Assembly (NCBI RefSeq): GCF_030499575.1
Contig: NZ_JASTLC010000001.1
Span: 6,782,001-6,846,000, forward strand
DNA: 64,000 nucleotides
Source of the DNA: Streptomyces sp. DG2A-72
Lineage (GTDB): Bacteria; Actinomycetota; Actinomycetes; Streptomycetales; Streptomycetaceae
Direction of reading: 5' to 3'
Shown here: piece after piece, positions 5,458-12,209 of the stretch
How positions within the stretch are numbered: the first letter of the stretch is position 1
Layout: each line of letters starts with the position of its first letter
The notes under the pieces: generated by a model
Databases searched by the model: none
What the model was told of the DNA's origin: nothing
The model's input: the letters and a program-made list of their open reading frames with translations, nothing else
Translations under genes and position numbers: made by a program

Positions 5458-6828
5458 TCACGCCTCCGCCGCCGAATCCTCCTCGTCCAGGATCTCCTCA
5501 GGCACGAACCCCGGCAGCCACTCCTCCAGTTCCTCGCGCAGTCGCACCGTCGCTCCCAGCTGGCACAGCACGCCGATCGTGCTGAGGGTCACCCGGTGTA
5601 TCAGCAGATACGCCGGAGGCAGATTGAGCTGCTTGCCCAACTGGTAGGCGGGGGAGCGCGGGTCGGCGACTCGGGCCGCCTGGCTGCGCATCCAGCCGCG
5701 GGTGAAGGTGAACTCGTCCACACGGGCCGGTTCGATGATCGGCAGGAGATAGTCGAGGACGGCGTCGGGGTCCAGGTCTATCGATTCCTTGACGAAGCCC
5801 TCCGTGCACAGCAGTTCGTAGACGGCGTCCGCCTCGCCGTCGAGCGTCATGCGCAGGGAATCGCCGATCGGGGTCGGCAGTCCGCCCGGGAGGCGGTCGA
5901 CGGTGCCGAAGTCCAGCACACCCAGGCGCCAGTCGTCCTCGCCGTCGGGTCCGCCGGGCAGGAGCCGGAAGTTGCCCGGGTGGGGGTCGGCGTGCAGGAG
6001 GCCGGTGCGGGCCGGGCCGGAGAAGAGGAAGCGGGCCAGGAGCTGCCCGGCACGGTCGCGCTGGTCCTGGGTGCCCTCCGAGATGATCTCCGACATGGGG
6101 ATGCCGTCCATCCACTCGGTGATCAGGACCTGCTCGCGCTGGTGGACCACCTCGGGCACCACGACGTCCGGGTCGTCCGTGAACTCCTCGGCGTGCGCCT
6201 GCTGAGCCTGCGCCTCCAGGTCGTAGTCCAGCTCCTCCGAGACCCGGTCGCGCAGCTCCGCGATGAGGGGTTTGATGTCCATCCCCGGGATGAGCGGGCC
6301 CAACAGGCGGGCGAAACGGCTCAGTTGGTTCAGATCGGACAGCAGGGCTTCACCGGCGCCCGGGTACTGCACCTTGACCGCCACCTCGCGGCCGTCGTGC
6401 CACACTCCCCGGTGCACTTGGCCGATCGAGGCTGCCGCGGAGGGCTTGTCCTCGAACTCGAGGAACAGGTCGTGCCAGTCCTCGCCGAGCCGCTCCGACA
6501 GCACGGCGTGCATGGTGCGCGTCGGCATAGGCGGGGCCGCGTCCTGCAGCTTGGTCAGCGCCGCCCGGTAGGGCCCGGCGACCTCCTCGGGCAGCGCGGA
6601 CTCGAAGACGGACAGGGCCTGCCCGAACTTCATCGCCCCGCCTTTCAGCTCGCCGAGGACCTTGAACAACTGCTCCGCGGTGCGCTGTTGCAGTTCGCGG
6701 CCGACGATCTCCGCGGACTCGCCGACGATCCGCTTGCCGAGTCCCCAGGTGGCCCGCCCGGCGAAGCCGAGCGGGAGTGCGGCGAGCTTGGCGGTCCGGG
6801 TGACCGCCTTCCGGGGAAGATCAGACAT
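5458..6828 (-). CDS. ABC1/UbiB-family atypical protein kinase-like protein
   Basis: 456 residues. It has the KxGQ-type motif (KFGQALSVFES), an ATP-binding lysine in VAVKVQYPG, catalytic-loop HADPHPGNF and metal-binding DFG (VLDFGTVDR), all characteristic of the ABC1/ADCK/UbiB family. These proteins support isoprenoid-quinone or lipid metabolism; the Streptomyces substrate is unknown. ATG 6828 has GGAGGG upstream and overlaps the end of the ThiF-like gene by eight bases, so the two are probably coupled. Mycobacteria carry an ABC1 gene beside whiB7 in the same arrangement (from memory, Rv3197). Confidence 0.88.
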   Translation of the reverse strand: MSDLPRKAVTRTAKLAALPLGFAGRATWGLGKRIVGESAEIVGRELQQRTAEQLFKVLGELKGGAMKFGQALSVFESALPEEVAGPYRAALTKLQDAAPPMPTRTMHAVLSERLGEDWHDLFLEFEDKPSAAASIGQVHRGVWHDGREVAVKVQYPGAGEALLSDLNQLSRFARLLGPLIPGMDIKPLIAELRDRVSEELDYDLEAQAQQAHAEEFTDDPDVVVPEVVHQREQVLITEWMDGIPMSEIISEGTQDQRDRAGQLLARFLFSGPARTGLLHADPHPGNFRLLPGGPDGEDDWRLGVLDFGTVDRLPGGLPTPIGDSLRMTLDGEADAVYELLCTEGFVKESIDLDPDAVLDYLLPIIEPARVDEFTFTRGWMRSQAARVADPRSPAYQLGKQLNLPPAYLLIHRVTLSTIGVLCQLGATVRLREELEEWLPGFVPEEILDEEDSAAEA

Positions 6829-8035
6829 GCGCCCTCCAGGTCCCAGCCAGCCGCGCCGTGTGTGTCGTACGGCGAAACTCCTTCGACGGTTGTTGCTCTG
6901 CCATTGTCTCGTGTGACTCCTCGTCCTCCGAGGAGTGTTCCCCCTTAGCTTTCTCCGCGGCGCCGCAGGGGCATGCGGGATGGGCCCAGATCGGCCGCGC
7001 ATGCCAGTGGAGGGAGGGCAGGGACACCTCCCAGCGGGCGCCGGCGGTCGACGGCAGATGGCCGTCCAGGAAGGCGAGCGCATGCGTGGCCGCGAGCCCG
7101 GCGACCGTGGTGGCCAGCGCCAGATCACAGGGTCCCACCTGCCGTTGTTTCCCCGAACGCCACTGGGCCACCAGGCGCGGCCAGGCCGGATCCCGGTCCG
7201 TGCGCCCCTCGTGCAGACAGCCCGCACAGCTGGTCTCCCCGGGCAGGACGAGGGGGCCGACCACGCCGGTTCCCTCCACGACGCCGGCGTACAGATGAGG
7301 CGTGCCGGAGGTGATCAGGGGCTCGGCGGTAGCGGGGACGGGCGCGTGCACACCGACGTCGTCCCGTGGCGCGAGAACGACCAGGGAGTATCCCGGGTCG
7401 CGGTCCTCGAGCGGGGACTGCGGGCCGCGGCGTGGCGGGCGGTCCGGTGCCGCCCGGCGTACGGCCCGGCGGGCCGCTTCGGCTCTGCGCTCGCCGATCG
7501 ACTCGGCGGGCAGCCCACCCGGTGCGATGTCCCACGGCTCGACGGTGCCGCCGTCGAGCACGTCCACCTCGCCGACGCCGGCCCCTGACAGCAGGGAGGC
7601 GAGAACCGCTCCCACCCGGCCCGCGCCCCGCACCTGGACCCGCAGGGAGCGGCGTGCCGTCAGCTGCCGCATCGCGTCGCCCGGTGCGGAGGTGGTCAGG
7701 GTCAGGGAGGCCAGATCGGGGCGCAGCCGGTCCAGGACCTCCTTCTTCTTGCGCAGCGCCGCGGCAGCCGGGCCGCCGCCTGTCGCGTCGTCGACGAGGC
7801 CGGACCGCGTCAGCCGCTCCACCAACTCGTCGACATGTCCGTCCGGTAGATCCATTCGCCGGCCCTCTTCGCGCAGCAGTGGGAGTCCGCGCGTGCCGTT
7901 GAGCAGATCGAGAAAGCTTCCCGTCGCCGTGTCCATCGGGCCCAGGGTCATCGCGTGCGCCGGTGTCATGCCGAACTGCACGGTGTTGAGGTCGCGCCAG
8001 CCGCGCCTGAGCGCGGGCTTCACCATCGGATGCAT
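6821..8035 (-). CDS. ThiF/E1-like protein with zinc-binding cysteines
   Basis: 404 residues. A winged-helix-like N-terminus (about 1-110) is followed by a ThiF/E1 Rossmann segment, VRGAGRVGAVLASLLSGAGV and DGGTVEPWD near 130-170. Two CxxC/CxC sites later (SCAGCLH, PACPCG) are typical of the zinc site of E1-type enzymes. Some relatives work in ribosomal-peptide cyclodehydratase systems, but no precursor peptide or YcaO gene is visible here. It overlaps the downstream ABC1-family gene. The tail (about 355-404) is charged and poorly conserved-looking. Adenylating activity is unproven. Confidence 0.75.
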   Translation of the reverse strand: MHPMVKPALRRGWRDLNTVQFGMTPAHAMTLGPMDTATGSFLDLLNGTRGLPLLREEGRRMDLPDGHVDELVERLTRSGLVDDATGGGPAAAALRKKKEVLDRLRPDLASLTLTTSAPGDAMRQLTARRSLRVQVRGAGRVGAVLASLLSGAGVGEVDVLDGGTVEPWDIAPGGLPAESIGERRAEAARRAVRRAAPDRPPRRGPQSPLEDRDPGYSLVVLAPRDDVGVHAPVPATAEPLITSGTPHLYAGVVEGTGVVGPLVLPGETSCAGCLHEGRTDRDPAWPRLVAQWRSGKQRQVGPCDLALATTVAGLAATHALAFLDGHLPSTAGARWEVSLPSLHWHARPIWAHPACPCGAAEKAKGEHSSEDEESHETMAEQQPSKEFRRTTHTARLAGTWRAHV

Positions 8036-8264
8036 GTCAGGCCCCCGTAGCCCTGTGAAAGATCCCCGTACGTCCCCGTTCGTCGGAGAGGCGTGGTCAG
8101 TGCTCTGCCGACGAGTGCCAGCATGCCCGCCCCCGCGGCCGGACGACGAAAGTTGTCCACAGGCGGTGGGTATTCTTCGTACAAATCAGACGCCCGGTGG
8201 GGGATCGGAATCGAACCGTCCCGGAGTCGGGACTTCACCCATGTGCAGCGGGTAACGTCGGGGC

Positions 8265-8861
8265 GTGTCCGCCGACCCACTGCACCGTGCCGGAACTCCA
8301 CAGCGCAGTACGACGAGCCCGCCGCCGAGCGGCCCGGGGGCGAGCGCGATCGAGGTGCGCCGGAGCGCCCGCAGACGCAGGACGGTCTCCGCGTACCGCG
8401 AGGGCGATCGCACCGTAGTGCTCATTCCTGCCCGGATGTCCGAGGCGGAGGAGCAGCGCTGGGTCAACGTCATGCTCGACAAGCTCGCCGCCCAGGAGAG
8501 CAAGCGGCAGTTGGGCGACGCCGAGCTCGCCGAGCGGGCGGAACGGCTCTCGGACCAGTACTTCGGCGGTCGCGCCCGGCCCACGTCCGTGCGCTGGGTC
8601 ACCAACCAGAACACACGCTGGGGCTCGTGCACCCCGGCCGAGGGCAGTATCCGGCTCTCGCACCGGCTGCAGGGCATGCCCGAGTACGTCGTCGACTACG
8701 TCCTGCTCCATGAGCTCGCGCATCTGCTGGTCCCCGGACACGGGCCCCGGTTCTGGCGCCTGCTGGAGGCGTACCCGCGCACCGAGCGGGCCCGCGGCTA
8801 TCTCGAAGGGGTGGTCGCCGCCGACCGGCTGCCGCATCTGCCCGGCGAGCGCACCGAGTGA
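8265..8861 (+). CDS. YgjP/DUF45-type zinc metallopeptidase
   Basis: 198 residues. The NTRWGSC segment and the zincin motif LLHELAHLLVPGHGPRFW (HExxH plus a downstream His) define the YgjP-like metallopeptidase family. It is probably cytoplasmic: there is no signal peptide or membrane helix. GTG 8265 lacks a ribosome site, and TAACGT at 8253-8258 is correctly placed for leaderless transcription. The first 40 residues are low-complexity. It is transcribed away from the ThiF/ABC1 pair. Substrate unknown. Confidence 0.85.
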   Translation: MSADPLHRAGTPQRSTTSPPPSGPGASAIEVRRSARRRRTVSAYREGDRTVVLIPARMSEAEEQRWVNVMLDKLAAQESKRQLGDAELAERAERLSDQYFGGRARPTSVRWVTNQNTRWGSCTPAEGSIRLSHRLQGMPEYVVDYVLLHELAHLLVPGHGPRFWRLLEAYPRTERARGYLEGVVAADRLPHLPGERTE

Positions 8862-8999
8862 CCACTCCTGCCGACGGGGCCCGAAGTGCCGTCGAAGGGT
8901 CATTGTGTACCGGGTCTGTACCGACTTCGTCCGGTGCCCGAGTTTGCAGTTAGCCTGACGCGACGCACTCACATTCGGGATGGGGGACGGTCGTTACGC

Positions 9000-10745
9000 A
9001 TGGCCAGGGAATTCCAACGCGGCCACAAGGCCAAGATCAGTGACCTCACCGCGGGCACGGATCTGTACGTAGGTGTGCAGATTTCGGGCCCCGGGCTGAG
9101 CTTCGACATCAGCTGCTTCGGCCTCGACGCCGACGAACGGCTCTCGGACGACCGGTACTTCGTCTTCTTCAACCAGCCGAAGTCCCCCGAGGAGTCCATC
9201 CAACTGCTGGGGGCGCAGGCCGGCGACACGGAGTCCTTCCGGGTCACGCTCGACAGGATCCCGCCGCAGATCCAGAAGCTGTCCTTCACGGCGACGCTGG
9301 ACGGCGCCGGTCAGCTGTCGCAGATCGCTCCCGGATACATCCGCATCGTCGCCGGTGGCGAGGAAGTGGCCCGCTATCCCTTCAACGGCTCGGAGTTCTC
9401 CACCGAACGGGCCGTGATGCTGGGCGACTTCTACCTGAAGGACGTCTGGCGGTTCGCCGCGGTCGGCCAGGGCTTCGACGGCGGCCTCGACGCACTGCTG
9501 AAGAACTTCGGCGGCGAGGTCCTCGAAGAGGAGACGCCCGAGCCGCAGCCGCAGGCCCAGGCAGGTGCGGCTCCCGGTTTCGCGCCGCCCGCGCAGGCCG
9601 CCGCGCCGCCTGCCTTCGGCGCCCCGTCCACTCCGGAACCCGCCCCCGCGCCGACCCCGGCGCCTCCGGCACCGCAGCCCGCCGCGCAGGGCTTCGCGCC
9701 CCCGCCCGCGGCCACTCCGCCGGCAGCACCTCAGGCCCCGGCGCCCGCACCCTCCGTGCACGCCGCGCCCACCGTCGTCGCCCCGATGAGCCCGCCCGGC
9801 GGTGCCCAGGTGCCGCCCCCGGCCCCCGCCCCGGCGCCCTACGGACAGCCCCCCGGCCAGCAGCAGCCGCCGTACGGCCAGGCTCCCGGCCAGACCGCCC
9901 CGCTGCCGCCCGGCTACGCCCAGCCCCAGGCACCGCAGGCCCCGCAGTCACCGCAAGCCCCCACGCCGCCGCCCGGCTACGGTCAGCCGACCCCGCCCCC
10001 GGGCTATGGACAGCCGCCGCAGTTCGGACAGGCCCACGGCCAGCAGGCAGCCCCGTACGGCGCTCCCCAGGGAACCCCGCAGGCTCCCGGTGTGGCCGCC
10101 GCGCTCCAGAAGTTCAAGGAGACGCCCACCGGGCAGCGCTGGACGCAGCAGAACAAGAAGATGGTCCGCGTCGACCTCGGCGTCGGCGGGCAGCCGGTGC
10201 TGGCCCGGCAGGGCAGCATGGTGCTCTACCAGGGCAAGGTCGACTTCAGCTACAAGAGCGCGGGCTTCGCCGGCCGGATCGCGGGCAACGCGACCGGCCA
10301 GGAGATGCAGCTGATGCGCTGTACCGGCCAGGGCCAGGTGTTCCTCGCCGAGAACTCCACGATGCTGCACCCCATCGAGCTCCAGGGCGACGGCATCTGT
10401 GTCTCCGCCGATAACGTCCTCGCCTTCGACGAGAGCCTCCAGCACGAGGTCCGCCGTATCGAGGGACACGGCATCCCCGGAGGCGCGCTGTTCACGATGC
10501 AGTTCACCGGGACCGGCACGATCGTCGTGAAGACGCACGGCACGCCCGTGGTGCTGCCGGTCACGCCCACGACGTTCGCGGACTGCAACGCCGTGGTCGC
10601 CTGGTCGGCCGCCGCCCAGGTGGTCGTCTCCAGCCAGGTCCGCATGCGCCGCAACGCCTACCCCGGCGACACCGGGGAGAGCGTCAACCTCCAGTTCCGT
10701 GGCGCGCCCGGCAACTTCATCGTCGTCCAGCCGTACGAGATCTGA
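9000..10745 (+). CDS. TerD-AIM24 fusion protein with proline-rich linker
   Basis: 581 residues. Residues 1-175 are a TerD domain (DLYVGVQISGPGLSFDISCF, DDRYFVFFNQPKSPE, FRAAVGQGF-like end); TerD proteins bind calcium and belong to tellurite/stress systems. Residues 175-385 are a Pro/Ala/Gln-rich linker with repeated PPGYGQP units. The C-terminal 190 residues are an AIM24 domain (MVRVDLGVGGQPVLARQGSMVLYQG), related to the next two gene products. ATG 9000 has GGGGGA upstream; the frame is open from 8886, but no better start is seen. Probable three-gene operon. The fusion suggests a membrane- or surface-associated stress complex; inference only. Confidence 0.88.
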   Translation: MAREFQRGHKAKISDLTAGTDLYVGVQISGPGLSFDISCFGLDADERLSDDRYFVFFNQPKSPEESIQLLGAQAGDTESFRVTLDRIPPQIQKLSFTATLDGAGQLSQIAPGYIRIVAGGEEVARYPFNGSEFSTERAVMLGDFYLKDVWRFAAVGQGFDGGLDALLKNFGGEVLEEETPEPQPQAQAGAAPGFAPPAQAAAPPAFGAPSTPEPAPAPTPAPPAPQPAAQGFAPPPAATPPAAPQAPAPAPSVHAAPTVVAPMSPPGGAQVPPPAPAPAPYGQPPGQQQPPYGQAPGQTAPLPPGYAQPQAPQAPQSPQAPTPPPGYGQPTPPPGYGQPPQFGQAHGQQAAPYGAPQGTPQAPGVAAALQKFKETPTGQRWTQQNKKMVRVDLGVGGQPVLARQGSMVLYQGKVDFSYKSAGFAGRIAGNATGQEMQLMRCTGQGQVFLAENSTMLHPIELQGDGICVSADNVLAFDESLQHEVRRIEGHGIPGGALFTMQFTGTGTIVVKTHGTPVVLPVTPTTFADCNAVVAWSAAAQVVVSSQVRMRRNAYPGDTGESVNLQFRGAPGNFIVVQPYEI

Positions 10746-10758
10746 GGGAGAGCCCGTC

Positions 10759-11439
10759 ATGAACCAGCCGCTCGCGGGCTACGCTCCCGCACCCGTCACC
10801 GCCCGCATGGAGAACCACGGCAACCACATGCTGAAGGTCGCCATGCAGACCGGAAACGACCTCCTCGCGCGCGTGGGGTCGATGGTCGCCTACGAAGGGT
10901 TCGTCCAGTACGAGCCCAACCCGCCCGCCGTCCGCCAGATCGCCCGCGACTGGGCCACCGGCGAGGGCGCGCCCCTGATGAAGTGCTCCGGCGACGGCCT
11001 GCTCTACCTCGCCGACTACGGCGCCAACGTCGTCGTGATCAACCTCAACGGCGACGGGATCTCCGTCAACGCCACCAACCTGCTCGCCTTCGACGCCCAC
11101 CTCACCTGGGGCGTCGAGCGGGTCAAGGGGCTGGCGAAGTTCGCCGGGCAGGGCCTGTGGAACACCAAGATCTCCGGGCAGGGCTGGGTCGCGCTGACCT
11201 CCCGGGGCAAGCCGATCGTCGTCGACTGCGGCGGTGGCGAGGACGAGACGTACGTCGACCCGGACGCGCTCGTCGCCTGGTCCCCGAACCTCAAGGTGAA
11301 GGGCAAGCGCAGCTTCAAGGCGCAGTCGCTCATCGGCCGGGGCAGCGGTGAGGCCTTCCAGATGGCCTTCTCCGGCCAGGGCATCGTCGTCGTCCAGCCC
11401 AGCGAGGACAGCACCGACCGTCTCCGGGTCCGGGGCTGA
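10759..11439 (+). CDS. AIM24-family protein, copy 2
   Basis: 226 residues, nearly all AIM24 domain (MLKVAMQTGNDLLARVGSMVAYEGFVQYE; GDGLLYLADYG; GQGIVVVQPSE at the end). GAGGGAG precedes ATG 10759, thirteen bases after the TerD-AIM24 stop. It has no signal peptide. AIM24 was named for a yeast mitochondrial inner-membrane protein; bacterial members are largely uncharacterised. It is clearly paralogous to the C-terminal part of the first gene and to the third gene, implying local duplication. Confidence 0.85.
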   Translation: MNQPLAGYAPAPVTARMENHGNHMLKVAMQTGNDLLARVGSMVAYEGFVQYEPNPPAVRQIARDWATGEGAPLMKCSGDGLLYLADYGANVVVINLNGDGISVNATNLLAFDAHLTWGVERVKGLAKFAGQGLWNTKISGQGWVALTSRGKPIVVDCGGGEDETYVDPDALVAWSPNLKVKGKRSFKAQSLIGRGSGEAFQMAFSGQGIVVVQPSEDSTDRLRVRG

Positions 11440-11453
11440 GGGGGAGCACCACC

Positions 11454-12209
11454 ATGCAGAGTCCGCTTTTCGCCTACAACGACCAGCAGACCCAGGAGCG
11501 TTGGAGCCTGCAGAACAAGCAGATGCTCCGCGTCGCCGTGGATGGTCACGAGGACCTCCTCGCCCGCAAGGGCACGATGGTCGCCTACCAGGGCCTCGTC
11601 GAGTTCGACGCCGAGTACCAGAGCCGCAATCAGGGACGCGCGCGTGCCCGCACCGGCGAGGGCCTGGACCTGATGCGCTGCCACGGACAGGGCACGGTCT
11701 ACCTCGCCAACCTCGCGCAGCACGTCCATGTGATGGAGGTGGACCACGACGGGCTGACCGTCGACAGCAGCTACGTCCTCGCCATGGACTCCTCGCTGCA
11801 CCACGAGGTCATCGCCGTCGACAGCCTCTACGGCATCTCCGGCTCCGGGAAGTACCAGCTCAACATCACCGGCCGCGGCAAGGTCGCGCTGATGACCTCG
11901 GGCGCCCCGCTGATGATGCAGGTGACACCCGACAAGTACGTCAACTGCGACGCCGACGCCATCGTCGCCTGGTCGACCTCCCTGCGCGTGCAGATGCAGG
12001 CCCAGACGCACTCCTCCGGGATCTGGCGGCGCCGCGGCAACACCGGTGAGGGCTGGGAACTCAGCTTCATGGGCAGCGGCTACGCCCTCGTCCAGCCCAG
12101 CGAGCTGCTTCCGCCGCAGAACGCCCAGGTCGGCTCGGGCGCCGCCGCGCAGTTCGGCATGGGGCAGCAGGGGGCACGGGGGCAGAACCAAGGCAACGTC
12201 TGGAGCTGA
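11454..12209 (+). CDS. AIM24-family protein, copy 3
   Basis: 251 residues. AIM24 domain from about residue 15 (MLRVAVDGHEDLLARKGTMVAYQGLVEFD) to GYALVQPSELLPP near 220, then a Gly/Gln-rich tail. Like copy 1 it has a QxW-T/S-QNK lead-in (ERWSLQNKQ), so copies 1 and 3 share more at this edge than copy 2 does. GGGGGAG precedes ATG 11454. It is the last gene of the cluster and is followed by a strong bidirectional terminator. The three products may assemble together. Confidence 0.85.
   Translation: MQSPLFAYNDQQTQERWSLQNKQMLRVAVDGHEDLLARKGTMVAYQGLVEFDAEYQSRNQGRARARTGEGLDLMRCHGQGTVYLANLAQHVHVMEVDHDGLTVDSSYVLAMDSSLHHEVIAVDSLYGISGSGKYQLNITGRGKVALMTSGAPLMMQVTPDKYVNCDADAIVAWSTSLRVQMQAQTHSSGIWRRRGNTGEGWELSFMGSGYALVQPSELLPPQNAQVGSGAAAQFGMGQQGARGQNQGNVWS

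Follow-up and report, generated by a model that had tools for sequence, protein, structure and literature searches.

The stretch of DNA analysed here (the window, 64,000 nt) corresponds to C1:6782001-6846000 of the 10.6 Mb genome of Streptomyces sp. DG2A-72. It carries three adjacent genes on the + strand, A1 (9000-10745), A2 (10759-11439) and A3 (11454-12209), referred to below as the triad. A1 encodes a fusion protein of 581 aa, ending in VVQPYEI, in which a TerD domain (residues 1-170; 9000-9509, +) is followed by a Pro/Gln-rich linker (9510-10148, +) and an AIM24 domain (residues 384-578; 10149-10733, +), as judged by Pfam and by an alignment of 31 fusions. Both domains pass the Pfam cut-offs, TerD (PF02342) with 124.2 bits and an E-value of 5.5e-36 (cut-off 25.3 bits) and AIM24 (PF01987) with 90.6 bits and 1.4e-25 (cut-off 25.7 bits). 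A2 (226 aa) and A3 (251 aa) are AIM24 proteins whose PF01987 matches also exceed 25.7 bits, at residues 18-214 (130.7 bits, 7.8e-38) and 21-215 (109.7 bits, 2.1e-31), respectively. None of the three reached the 96.6-bit cut-off of TIGR00266, a hypothetical equivalog (23.4, 46.5 and 43 bits for A1, A2 and A3). A sequence-only reading of this DNA had described a TerD-AIM24 fusion followed by two AIM24 genes; Pfam confirms this layout, and the outer coordinates it gave, 9000-12209, are exact.

The A1 and A2 frames start at the ATG codons at 9000 and 10759, and the genes are separated by only 13 nt (A1-A2) and 14 nt (A2-A3). Similarly short gaps, of 6-16 nt and 13-23 nt respectively, were observed in all 72 Streptomyces-type loci measured (out of 81, the start codon not having been located in the other 9). 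Operon-like spacing and the shared strand are consistent with the single transcription unit that the sequence-only reading had stated outright. With a highest 19-residue Kyte-Doolittle mean of 1.27, no segment of the triad proteins has the hydrophobicity expected of a transmembrane helix, so that any membrane association, as raised by the sequence-only reading, would have to be peripheral. At E 0.01, A1, A2 and A3 matched no family of the PADLOC anti-phage defence models.

Streptomyces-type loci were collected by a protein-guided scan, from which we kept the best 80 of 562 confirmed candidates, that is, the closest relatives, together with the window. The order TerD-AIM24, AIM24, AIM24 was found in all 81, in 4 of them as judged by the ends of the frames. 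In the Frankiaceae (family f63), the triad is present in the same order in 10 of the 11 loci fetched, the exception (L124) carrying another kind of triad. The fusion protein of one of these loci, L121, matches the Frankia protein P0121 at every residue, and Parafrankia, Pseudofrankia and Protofrankia come next among the matches listed, which identifies f63 as Frankiaceae. A protein search, which covers the fusion protein and not gene order, detected the fusion in Dactylosporangium, Virgisporangium, Polymorphospora, Fodinicola, Jatrophihabitans and Iamia metagenome-assembled genomes as well (best 120 of 3411 proteins). The survey for co-occurrence that the sequence-only reading had suggested thus finds the three genes together in both sets of loci, and the fusion, far from being limited to one strain, occurs in two families and further named genera.

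A profile of A2 matched 100 of 394 genomes of the class at E 1e-60 or better, with scores falling into two sets. The high-score set (at least 302 bits) comprises 69 genomes, namely 39 of the 40 from the same genus (the listed one without a match is G508) and 30 Frankiaceae. The low-score set (at most 227 bits) comprises 31 genomes from other families, and in the loci fetched from these the matched gene is a single AIM24 gene. AIM24 in general was found in 118 of 246 genomes of the class and 55 of 149 of the phylum; the DG2A-72 genome itself has 8 AIM24 and 18 TerD matches. When open reading frames of the window's first 24 kb were compared with the 10 Frankiaceae triad loci (11.5-19.5 kb each), only the triad stretch was matched. 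Up to three other loci in this comparison matched flanking genes too, as expected for the three Streptomyces triad loci in the set. The absence of flank matches in the Frankiaceae loci indicates that the triad is retained where its surroundings are not.

The relationships of the paralogues were examined in a tree of 122 AIM24 domains, built with a quick method that gave long-branch warnings, none of them on rows of A1-A3. The AIM24 domains of A1, A2 and A3 form three clades, each containing 9 Streptomyces-type and 10 Frankiaceae rows, with supports of 99, 100 and 100 in the SH-like approximate likelihood ratio test (SH-aLRT). These shared clades imply either that the duplications predate the family split or that the triad moved as a block; as judged by this tree, the triad has stayed whole and ordered whichever its origin. 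A second AIM24 triad, B1-B2-B3, lies elsewhere in the DG2A-72 genome (C1:7329569-7331482; L097:5417-7645). Like A1-A3, it consists of three AIM24 paralogues in a row, in an order kept across loci; unlike A1-A3, it is without a TerD fusion, and it branches apart from them. The B1-B2-B3 order is kept in several actinobacterial families, with one change for B2 and two each for B1 and B3 in the quick tree.

The class of the fused TerD was addressed with a tree of 47 TerD domains built with a careful method. The 19 A1-type fused TerDs group together (91/84), within a clade of 100/100 support that stands apart from the free TerDs. Their partners in this clade are P0241 (locus L108), a TerA-like protein of Deinococcus sp. 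QL22 (L174), a Spartinivicinus protein and TerD-VWA proteins such as that of D. taeanensis (L175), the VWA assignment being the annotation in the database record. P0241 aligns over its full length with the Deinococcus TerA-like protein (47%), both consisting of TerD, a Pro-rich tether and a C-terminal domain which we take to be TerA; the name TerA for these ter-operon proteins is likewise our assumption. A1 shares with the TerA-type and TerD-VWA proteins of ter operons the N-terminal TerD of this clade and the presence of a second, C-terminal domain, and with the TerA-type proteins also the Pro-rich tether. It differs from them in that its C-terminus is AIM24, Pfam giving only TerD and AIM24 and no TerA-type or VWA domain. 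Because of its place in this clade, A1 can be read as a TerA-type adaptor with an exchanged C-terminal domain: it looks like a TerA in which AIM24 has taken the place of the C-terminal half.

A second type of TerD-linker-AIM24 fusion was found in three loci of family f3 (L106, L139 and L160). Its TerD falls opposite the A1-type TerDs across the 100/100 branch. In constrained-tree tests, whose groups were defined once the trees had been inspected, a single grouping of all fused TerDs was rejected (p 8.9e-6), and a single grouping of their AIM24 domains was rejected less strongly (p 0.023). TerD has therefore probably been joined to AIM24 at least twice, the AIM24 side of this conclusion being less firm.

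Ter genes also lie beside some AIM24 genes of other kinds. TerD, StiP and PRTase_2 genes are located near second-type AIM24 arrays in L105 (together with TRSP and PELOTA) and L108 (PELOTA being below its cut-off), and in L137 a TerD gene comes after an AIM24 triad (7367-11839, -), while a same-strand gene with an adenylate/guanylate cyclase domain stands ahead of the triad. In Streptomyces, another AIM24 gene adjoins a TerD gene of another type in two of the four loci of that AIM24 clade (L098 and L114). The loci fetched were chosen and not random, and we claim no enrichment of TerD with AIM24. The view of the sequence-only reading that TerD and AIM24 belong together is borne out by the ordered triad in two families with unlike flanks, by a fusion that probably arose at least twice and by the AIM24 arrays beside Ter genes. 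In L098 (5227-7408; C1:522000-524400 of DG2A-72), the TerD protein gene precedes the AIM24 gene, with a bestrophin-like gene divergent upstream; the C-terminal half of this TerD protein presumably contains two CAP-like repeats, as judged by eye. On the D. taeanensis plasmid (L175:50-5989), TerD, TerD-VWA and TerD genes are followed about 2 kb further on by an annotated AIM24 family gene on the opposite strand.

The A1 linker measures 213 residues between the Pfam boundaries, slightly more than the 210 given by the sequence-only reading, which had correctly seen its Pro/Gln-rich composition; the PPGYGQP repeats it had listed are two copies of PPPGYGQP and one of PPGYAQP. For comparison, we used 84 Streptomyces-type linkers (from the window, the 80 loci and L110-L112), their ends being set by home-made profiles. 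Their median length is 173.5 residues, with 32% Pro and 13% Gln. In a structure model of A1, the linker is unstructured, with predicted local distance difference test (pLDDT) values below 50 across nearly all of residues 173-376, and TerD is mostly confident. The linkers are variable in sequence apart from a short Thr motif, HAAPTVVAPM in the window. The pattern [DAEQSN][PAQ]T[IVML][VIA][AT][PQN], drawn up after the linkers had been inspected, occurs in 81 of the 84 (mean of 0.215 in shuffled linkers), and a narrower form, H[AGT]x[PQ]T..AP, in 73; the three linkers outside the first pattern carry near forms, such as APTIVGP. A like motif is present in two of the three f3-type fusions (DPTIVAP and DPTMVAN), and none of 10 Frankiaceae linkers has it. 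A conserved Thr within disordered, Pro-rich sequence suggests that the site is phosphorylated or used for docking. A3 ends in a C-terminal tail (QNQGNVWS here) that is conserved and poorly modelled. Frankiaceae A3 frames (L121:7937-9127 and L128:10150-11532) carry Pro/Gly/Tyr-rich N-terminal and Gly-rich C-terminal stretches; low-complexity arms are thus not confined to A1.

An association of AIM24 with TerD is not new. AIM24 genes have been reported as frequent neighbours of TerD and as members of group I ter clusters, with a possible interaction of the proteins (PMC5822837, citing Anantharaman et al. 2012). The claim of the sequence-only reading that no described system has this make-up is therefore too broad, such a gene neighbourhood having been reported in 2012. 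The triad locus resembles group I ter clusters in the association of TerD and AIM24 genes; it differs from them in joining both domains in one protein, in its three ordered AIM24 paralogues and in the lack of TerB and TerC among the neighbours scanned. No paper on a TerD-AIM24 fusion or an AIM24 triad was found in the open-licence PMC literature, as judged by titles and the beginnings of abstracts. The AIM24-TerD link is thus known already; the triad module, the TerA-type adaptor class and the repeated fusion look new. The AIM24 structures 1pg6 (SpyM3_0169) and 1yox (PA3696) are stand-alone proteins of 16-18% identity, titled as being of unknown function or hypothetical.

Proteins with AIM24 span the three domains of life (PMC6162560), and according to PMC5822837 no prokaryotic role had been ascribed to AIM24 as of 2018. 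Yeast Aim24 is an inner-membrane protein interacting with MICOS (PMC3975624). The fungal proteins EOP-1 and IDC4 have a Pro/Gln-rich stretch followed by a C-terminal AIM24, as in A1; unlike A1, they have no reported TerD, and IDC4 is without a paralogue in its genome (PMC13075794, PMC6162560). EOP-1 self-interacts in yeast two-hybrid, and both proteins have roles in communication between cells, in fusion and in development linked to MAP kinase (same sources). These yeast and fungal roles suggest scaffolding. PMC6162560 describes the Pro/Gln-rich region as absent from other AIM24 proteins, including bacterial ones. A1 is a counterexample to its being confined to fungi, the likeness between A1 and EOP-1/IDC4 being probably convergent.

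A fixed, ordered set of little-studied AIM24 proteins, joined in Streptomyces and Frankia to a domain known otherwise from tellurite-stress proteins, suggests one stress-linked assembly. We propose, with about even confidence for and against, that the AIM24 subunits of A1, A2 and A3 make up a single cytosolic hetero-oligomer with a Ter adaptor arm and a Ter-type stress role. The three distinct AIM24 subunits would make up its core, possibly in peripheral contact with the cytoplasmic side of the membrane, and A1 would contribute the adaptor, a TerD of the TerA class held by a long, disordered linker. This arm could link the assembly to Ter machinery encoded elsewhere (TerC, free TerDs and a PRTase_2/StiP cluster). 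A natural partner would be the Ter cluster of DG2A-72 at C1:2940-2953 kb, about 3.8 Mb from the triad, which encodes TerC/DUF475, three TerDs, a C-C bond lyase and a PRTase_2/TRSP/StiP/PELOTA protein. We infer the physical complex, its membrane contact, a stress ligand and a role of the linker motif in regulated docking or phosphorylation. The shell architecture imagined in the sequence-only reading finds no support here.

Several observations weigh against this proposal. The six window neighbours that were scanned include no Ter gene (TerB, TerC, PRTase_2/StiP). A clade uniting A1, A2 and A3 was neither shown nor rejected (p 0.245). In the stretches fetched, TerD is present for only 3 of 10 second-type arrays (L105, L108 and L137) and is missing for 29 of 31 single-AIM24 rows of the tree, so that AIM24 does not need TerD. 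The acidic loop of the A1 TerD is 5 residues shorter than in 2kxt and 3ibz (D36, D43, D50, D51 and D76 being invariant in the 31 fusions), and this shortening relative to free TerDs makes calcium sensing doubtful. The AIM24 part of the A1 model is of low confidence, with pLDDT below 50 over residues 525-581. Three f63 genomes (G289, G327 and G361) have AIM24 and are not among the A2 profile matches. Finally, median identities to the window over the 80 loci are 91.0% for TerD, 88.9% for the A1 AIM24, 93.8% for A2 and 86.1% for A3, much like the neighbours (YgjP 88.9%, Zincin_2 91.1%, ABC1 86.2%, ThiF 72.5%); the triad is constrained, not exceptionally so.

Instead of one assembly, the triad could represent a tandem duplication giving three independent homo-oligomers, each AIM24 protein acting alone and TerD being merely a targeting arm on one of them. 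AIM24 is also encoded by single genes in many actinobacteria, and the 6 chains of one sequence in the PA3696 structure indicate that homo-oligomers are possible. Against this stand the three orthogroups shared, in unchanged order, by two families whose flanking genes differ, and the separate B1-B2-B3 array, which shows much the same pattern; we consider this explanation unlikely. A role of the genes in metal or tellurite tolerance in the strict sense, TerD being the part that binds calcium or metal, fits poorly with the shortened acidic loop, with neighbours scanned that include neither TerB nor TerC and with a separate Ter cluster in the same genome, and appears very improbable.

Alternatively, the triad could be a mycelial scaffold run by phosphorylation, organizing a membrane-proximal site of signalling or growth in hyphae, the linker Thr being phosphorylated by a kinase and then recognized by a phospho-binding protein. 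The Thr motif in the Streptomyces-type and f3-type fusions would agree with this, as would the mycelial lifestyle of several fusion-carrying genera. Its absence from all Frankiaceae linkers and the drawing up of the pattern after inspection speak against it, as does the fusion in Jatrophihabitans and an Iamia metagenome-assembled genome, neither genus being known as mycelial. Parallels exist in EOP-1 and IDC4, with their similar architecture and roles in cell-cell communication or fusion (PMC13075794, PMC6162560), and in three phosphorylated TerD-domain proteins of S. rimosus (PMC9600765), which may or may not include the counterpart of A1. On balance, such a scaffold is a possibility to which we give little weight. 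A bolder combination, in which the triad would be the bacterial counterpart of the fungal Pro/Gln-AIM24 scaffolds, an obligate AIM24 hetero-oligomer forming a new Ter branch in mycelial actinobacteria with a TerA-class tether and a kinase-switched linker, is speculative and in our opinion rather improbable.

A compact triad with a built-in Ter adaptor in nearly all sampled Streptomyces (A2 in 39 of 40) offers a tractable test of the function of AIM24 assemblies and of what TerA-class adaptors recruit, Streptomyces being open to deletion, tagging and imaging.

Upstream of A1, a direct repeat TGTACCG-n4-TGTACCG with an 11-nt period (8906-8923, +), about 93 nt before the ATG, is a candidate regulator site; GTACC-n6-GTACC is present in 59 of 72 upstream regions, in most of them about 93 nt ahead of the ATG. 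The exact repeat has a single match in the DG2A-72 genome, and it resembles sites of OmpR-type regulators. The conserved TTAGCCTG (8950-8957, +), found in 68 of the 72 regions, could be the -10 part of a promoter. The six window neighbours scanned with Pfam are YgjP-like, ThiF, ABC1, Zincin_2, Epimerase and one without a match. Among the nine genes or domains compared, the ThiF-family gene (6821-8035, -) ranks last in median identity, and its product passes the NCBIfam model of a TOMM precursor leader-binding domain (39.1 bits, cut-off 36.9).

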